From: a virus | Length of the DNA stretch: 34,145 bases | Direction: 5' to 3' (one strand) | IMG/VR virus record: IMGVR_UViG_3300027659_000114 | Coordinates: 1 to 34,145 of that record | Shown: one piece after another, positions 33,373 to 33,594 of the stretch | Layout: every line of letters begins with the position of its first letter | How positions within the stretch are numbered: position 1 is the first letter of the stretch | Notes under the pieces: model-generated | The model's input: the letters and a program-made list of their open reading frames with translations, nothing else | Told to the model about the DNA's origin: nothing | The model's database searches: none | Translations under genes and position numbers: made by a program

Positions 33373-33548
33373 AATACACAGTTGATTACTACGACGACGA
33401 AGATCGCCGGCCCTTCTGGGGCGTTACCGAATGGGTTGCAAACGAACTCGGTGGCGCGTCAGGCCGGTTACTTGAGAAGTGCTCGACCGAAGCCAGTGCA
33501 GAGTCGCTTGCCCGGGCTTACACAATGATCTATGCCTACTCCTACTGA
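33369..33548 (+). CDS. Small acidic-aromatic early protein, 59 aa
   Basis: The ATG overlaps the previous stop. MKYTVDYYDDEDRRPFWGVT is acidic and aromatic-rich; helices follow (EWVANELGGASGRLLEKC and SAESLARAYTMIYAYSY). The last codons and the TGA stop are part of the hammerhead ribozyme that follows: TCCTA (from the Ser-Tyr codons) is the 5' side of stem I, and TGA is inside the CTGATGA core. A terminating ribosome would therefore cover the ribozyme. The function of the protein is unknown. Confidence 0.72.
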   Translation: MKYTVDYYDDEDRRPFWGVTEWVANELGGASGRLLEKCSTEASAESLARAYTMIYAYSY

Positions 33549-33594
33549 TGAGGCCGGGTGGTACCGGCCGAAACCGCTTACGGGCGGTCTGGGA
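33540..33594 (+). ncRNA. Type I hammerhead self-cleaving ribozyme
   Basis: All conserved parts are present in order. Stem I 5' strand TCCTA (33540-33544); core CTGATGA (33545-33551); stem II GGCCGG/CCGGCC (33552-33557 with 33564-33569), loop GTGGTA; core GAA (33570-33572). Stem III ACCGC/GCGGT (33573-33577 with 33584-33588) includes the required A15.1-U16.1 pair, with loop TTACGG (a UACG tetraloop after a U-G pair). C17 is 33589, giving the GUC triplet. Stem I 3' strand is TGGGA (33590-33594), pairing A-U, U-G, C-G, C-G, U-A. Cleavage is predicted between 33589 and 33590. Stem I is the open one, hence type I. Extension of stem I and the loop-loop contact could not be traced by eye. Confidence 0.9.

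Follow-up and report, generated by a model that had tools for sequence, protein, structure and literature searches.

A predicted type I hammerhead ribozyme with the preceding gene's stop codon in its core, upstream of a DUF932 gene in a tailed phage contig

The window analysed here (the whole stretch of 34,145 bases) is a virus contig that we assign to a tailed phage because it encodes a terminase and an SU10-like portal. At positions 33540-33594 (+ strand) it carries a complete type I hammerhead ribozyme, running from stem I to stem I, and the catalytic core of this element contains the stop codon of the preceding gene. On the evidence of relatives we regard the element as a genuine type I hammerhead that is predicted to cleave itself. 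The overlap is conserved, but many unrelated phage hammerheads also lie on or next to a stop codon, which favours ordinary mRNA cutting between genes more than a translation sensor. The account that we favour, with moderate confidence, is that of an mRNA-processing hammerhead at the junction of a chain of overlapping small genes and a DUF932 gene, abutting the upstream gene and offering it UGAUGA as a tandem stop at no cost. A regulatory role for the overlap is possible.

Anatomy of the ribozyme and of the gene junction

The features of the junction are as follows (window positions).

33369-33548, + strand: ORF of 59 codons plus stop, with homologues; its start overlaps the stop of the preceding ORF (ATGA)
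33540-33544 / 33590-33594, + strand: stem I, TCCTA / TGGGA; the 5' strand is common to codons TCC TAC
33545-33551, + strand: catalytic core strand CTGATGA, invariant in the family
33546-33551, + strand: tandem in-frame stop TGATGA within the core CTGATGA (second TGA at 33549-33551)
33552-33557 / 33564-33569, + strand: stem II (whole 33552-33569), loop GTGGTA; two pairs with double-sided changes
33560-33562, + strand: GGU of loop II, invariant; candidate pseudoknot partner ACC at 33596-33598
33570-33572, + strand: core strand GAA (G12-A14), from the alignment of relatives
33573-33578 / 33583-33588, + strand: stem III (whole 33573-33588); two pairs with double-sided changes
33589/33590, + strand: predicted cleavage site after H17 = C33589 (GUC), from the sequence and hammerhead rules
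33595-33600, + strand: conserved AACCCC adjoining stem I (AAACCC in relatives), putative tertiary contact with loop II
33604-33618, + strand: covarying hairpin (double-sided changes in two pairs), expected within the 5' leader of the DUF932 fragment
33627-33631, + strand: Shine-Dalgarno AGGAG of the DUF932 gene, invariant in aligned relatives
33638-34144, + strand: DUF932 gene (Pfam PF06067, E 1.6e-20), running off the window

The elements that define a type I core (CUGANGA, GAA(A) and UH at the cleavage site) are present as CTGATGA, GAAA and GTC and are invariant in relatives. All three stems are found, with stems II and III closed and stem I open, and the inner four pairs of stem I are kept in all aligned relatives. 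The conserved AACCCC next to stem I likely makes a tertiary contact with loop II. A pseudoknot between the loop II GGU and ACC 33596-33598 may form, and comparison across families supports it weakly: among 25 short-stem-I cases with a GG loop, GGC/GCC matching was seen in 8 and GGU/ACC in 2, the others being unmatched.

An Rfam search of the window returned nothing at gathering and nothing at E<=1. With a short-stretch query, matches appeared only below threshold, at E<=10, namely RF00163 Hammerhead_1 (16.4 bits, gathering 34) and RF03152 RAGATH-1 (20.7 bits, gathering 56.3). The gathering score is the curator's cut-off for automatic annotation and carries no structural requirement. In a plain energy fold the hammerhead is not the minimum-energy structure, and a fold constrained to contain it lies about 3-12 kcal/mol above the unconstrained fold of the longer RNA, in a calculation that ignores tertiary contacts.

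The upstream ORF (33369-33548) ends GCC TAC TCC TAC TGA, with its stop at 33546-33548. The coordinates bear out what had been proposed in a preliminary description of this DNA, that TAC TCC TAC TGA is at once gene end, stem I and core. Compared with its homologue in L001 the ORF shows dN = 0 and dS = 0.31, and we therefore take it to be a real gene under selection. Three small ORFs in 32945-33548 overlap start-in-stop, with ATGA at 33124-33127 and 33369-33372, so that the ribozyme stands at the end of this chain.

Relatives, covariation and the conserved stop

A DUF932 search gave 80 viral loci, and a strict stem test applied upstream of DUF932 detected a hammerhead in L001-L013 and L015; other DUF932 relatives are without the ribozyme. 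It is also carried by L083, which was retrieved through the small upstream protein. Three new contigs were inspected after a search with the loop II pattern: L103 carries the ribozyme, and L097 and L100, which lack it, were dismissed as chance matches to the pattern. Among named phages we found no useful close DNA relatives.

Across an alignment of 11 members, each of the 21 pairs tested is formed throughout (231/231 pair cells standard). Six pairs show double-sided changes, two each in stem II, stem III and the downstream hairpin, and stem I shows one-sided changes only. The covariation score was not reached by any of 500 shuffles, and structures slid along the same alignment pair at 17-40%. 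These compensatory changes in relatives indicate that the ribozyme is maintained as an RNA. We rejected a longer stem I reaching into coding sequence, which was judged by eye on the alignment and is not preserved in L006.

Counting the window, the ribozyme can be read in 14 family members, and in each of them the core UGA serves as the in-frame stop; because these loci are related to one another, the 14 cases are not independent. In L006 the 59-codon ORF is missing (about 2620-2910), and the upstream gene is a homologue of the window ORF 33124-33372; this different gene still ends at the core UGA, an outcome expected one time in three by frame alone. The overlap has thus outlasted both extensive synonymous divergence and the replacement of the gene upstream. 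Comparison of codon and RNA conservation at the gene end, a check suggested in the preliminary description, came out on the side of the RNA, as the last two codons hold RNA and not protein. The penultimate codon in family members is always xCY, whichever of S, P, A or T it encodes, and the last is always TAC and never TAT, whereas both TAC and TAT occur at the Tyr codon two positions before it.

Other DUF932 genes have other elements in front of them. A motif of the form TTGGCGGCG..CAGG..GCCG..A..GCNTG lies directly before DUF932 in L016, L017, L019, L041, L043, L054, L057 and L059; in the window it is found at 32740-32842, at the start of the small-gene operon, and the window copy had no match in Rfam. 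A different structured RNA precedes DUF932 in L028-L030, L032-L034, L037-L039, L042, L044-L047, L049 and L050 (about 2888-3000), with the consensus CTGATCACAGCG...GTGCGATCCGCAC...CTGGCTTACGCCAG...CTAAACC. Here, too, the 5' edge of the RNA coincides with the TGA that ends the upstream gene; CTGA is invariant in 11 aligned sequences, five pairs show double-sided changes, and the copy in L030 had no Rfam match.

Placement of hammerheads relative to neighbouring genes

Viral contigs were scanned with the pattern CTGATGAG, restricted to a GNCC stem II, and the resulting counts describe a sample, the matches listed. After the stem test and clustering, these matches yielded 95 type I and 47 type III clusters with enough flank. 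The upstream stop was taken as that of the longest nearby ORF of at least 60 codons, genes being called by ORF length alone, and each ribozyme was taken to end at its first mismatch, so that distances on the open side come out too long.

Among the matches listed, the stop fell within -20..0 of the core UGA in 54 of the 95 type I clusters, compared with 4.7% at random positions, and exactly at the core UGA in 13. Stop positions in these listed clusters peak at -8 to -10 and at 0; the stop is usually flush with stem I (-8 to -12), and in most it lies 5' of the core (-8 to -17). The median gap among the type I matches listed is 0 nt from stop to ribozyme and 34 nt from ribozyme to the next start. 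When 12 nt are allowed for the ribosome site, type I elements in this sample of listed matches lie nearer the stop in 40 of 50 cases and nearer the start in 10 (sign p 2.4e-5), and of 23 type III elements, from the 47 listed clusters, 20 are closer to the next start and 3 to the stop (p 4.9e-4). A smaller set drawn from bacterial and archaeal genomes has 19 type I elements, of which 7 have the stop within -20..0 and 3 exactly at the core. Judged by this placement at the upstream stop, a type I hammerhead appears to go with the preceding gene.

The proteins that end at a core UGA are unrelated, and some are long and have a ribosome site, as in L273 (479 codons) and L557 (521 codons). ORFs ending inside the ribozyme favour the core UGA (13/18 against an expected 1/3, p 9e-4, among the matches listed); the figure becomes 13/23 (p 0.02), again among the matches listed, when five ribozyme-spanning ORFs from an earlier sample are added. 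CTGATGA sites outside ribozymes in the same loci end an ORF in 6.1%. Near-identical ribozymes on related contigs can differ in this respect: the stop is at the core UGA in L134 and L570 and at +10, in the stem II region, in L117 and L205.

Readings of the overlap and comparison with known systems

If the element processes mRNA, the shared transcript would be cut after C33589 in the cell, following transcription. Stems II and III would then remain on the upstream message, forming a structured 3' tail immediately past its stop, and the DUF932 message would begin with a 5'-OH on UGGGAAACC, followed by the conserved hairpin and its own AGGAG. On this view the position of the stop follows from the way such ribozymes adjoin the gene before them and from the two UGA triplets that CUGAUGA brings with it. 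A ribosome terminating there would occupy the core for a short time, and any delay in cutting that this may cause is probably incidental.

The preliminary description had seen in the overlap a translation-sensing switch, in which termination at the core UGA would prevent the ribozyme from folding. Well-translated mRNA would then remain in one piece and untranslated mRNA would be cleaved, and the level of DUF932 expression would follow from this. One premise stands by analogy: a ribosome with the core UGA in its A site would cover the core, given the footprint of about 16 nt past the stop in the eukaryotic example of TYMV. There, a terminating ribosome unfolds a stop-containing viral 3'-UTR element (PMC6265322), and a switch would also agree with the conservation of the overlap in the family, even after the gene swap in L006, and with the preference for the core UGA among ORF ends within listed ribozymes noted above. 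As a dedicated device and as the reason for the overlap, however, the switch is not supported, as type I hammerheads sit as a class on or against the upstream stop, most with the stop 5' of the core. Separation of stop and ribozyme in relatives, which had been named as evidence against the switch, does occur outside the immediate family: L112 and L187 have a similar loop motif and stops outside the core (-9 and -15). Moreover, the core CUGAUGA yields a tandem stop for free.

The predicted route by which cutting might act on DUF932 shows no consistent pattern in the family either. In the window, predicted exposure of the DUF932 Shine-Dalgarno rises from 0.17 in the precursor to 0.60 in the product, and CTCCTA (33539-33544) is fully complementary to TAGGAG (33626-33631) at the DUF932 ribosome site, a complementarity that is partly lost in relatives. 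Masking of the Shine-Dalgarno with release on cleavage is suggested by the window alone and was not retained, as the predicted change in exposure is not shared by most relatives. Translation termination takes about a second. Hammerheads can cut at about 1 per minute or above (PMC3088659), and from these rates we estimate that occlusion should delay cutting and not gate it, unless ribosomes queue. Overall, we consider the switch unlikely. Its extension to the phage type I class, that these stop-docked ribozymes are termination-coupled processing elements, active only while the end of the upstream gene is free of ribosomes, start-docked type III elements serving the downstream message, is if anything still more doubtful; if true, cutting would report translation.

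A mobile or leftover ribozyme kept for its own sake would account for the overlap by compact genomes and the stop already present in the core. Such neutral packing fits the variety of upstream genes among relatives, the unrelated genes that end at the core in many phages and the DUF932 relatives without a ribozyme. The compensatory changes, though, show that the RNA is maintained, and plain compactness would not produce the opposite placement biases of type I and type III among the matches listed, so we hold this explanation to be rather improbable. Far less probable is a coupling of the opposite sign, with ribosomes on the upstream ORF keeping its coding sequence from pairing with the ribozyme and so assisting the ribozyme. 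Adding upstream sequence does raise the predicted cost of the hammerhead in several members (e.g. L001 and L011), but across the 11 members the effect has no consistent direction, and a search there for conserved competition between coding sequence and ribozyme gave no trend, real sequences being indistinct from synonymous shuffles. Processing of the mRNA between the two genes remains our preferred reading. The docking of type I at the upstream stop and of type III near the downstream start gives rise to the idea that the body of the ribozyme remains part of whichever message it adjoins.

Perreault et al. described in 2011 hammerheads that flank prophage genes and proposed that they process long phage transcripts (PMC3088659); cleavage in E. 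coli was shown for a different array, the Agrobacterium triple array (PMC3088659). A 2017 review still treats the function of prokaryote and phage hammerheads as an open question (PMC6155905). In our literature search, with most subscription journals outside its scope, neither the core UGA as a recurrent stop nor the opposite placement of types I and III was described, and no papers linking hammerheads with DUF932 were found.

In its structure and membership the ribozyme is of a known kind. RAGATH-1 (RF03152) is matched partially, in the core and stems, and the 20.7 bits are so far under its gathering score of 56.3 that we do not assign the ribozyme there. The ribosome-sensing element of the TYMV 3'-UTR (PMC6265322) resembles the window in having a stop codon inside a structured RNA; it differs in coming from a plant virus and in not being a ribozyme, and, the two not being homologous, the likeness is one of possible working only. 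The closest counterparts are the phage and prophage type I hammerheads (PMC3088659), with which the window shares the core, the three stems, the type I order, an intergenic position in a phage and, likely, a contact between loop II and stem I. Unlike the type I hammerheads described there, the window and many relatives use the core UGA as the stop of the preceding gene, and such stops offer ready-made constructs with which to learn whether a ribozyme is slowed by terminating ribosomes.
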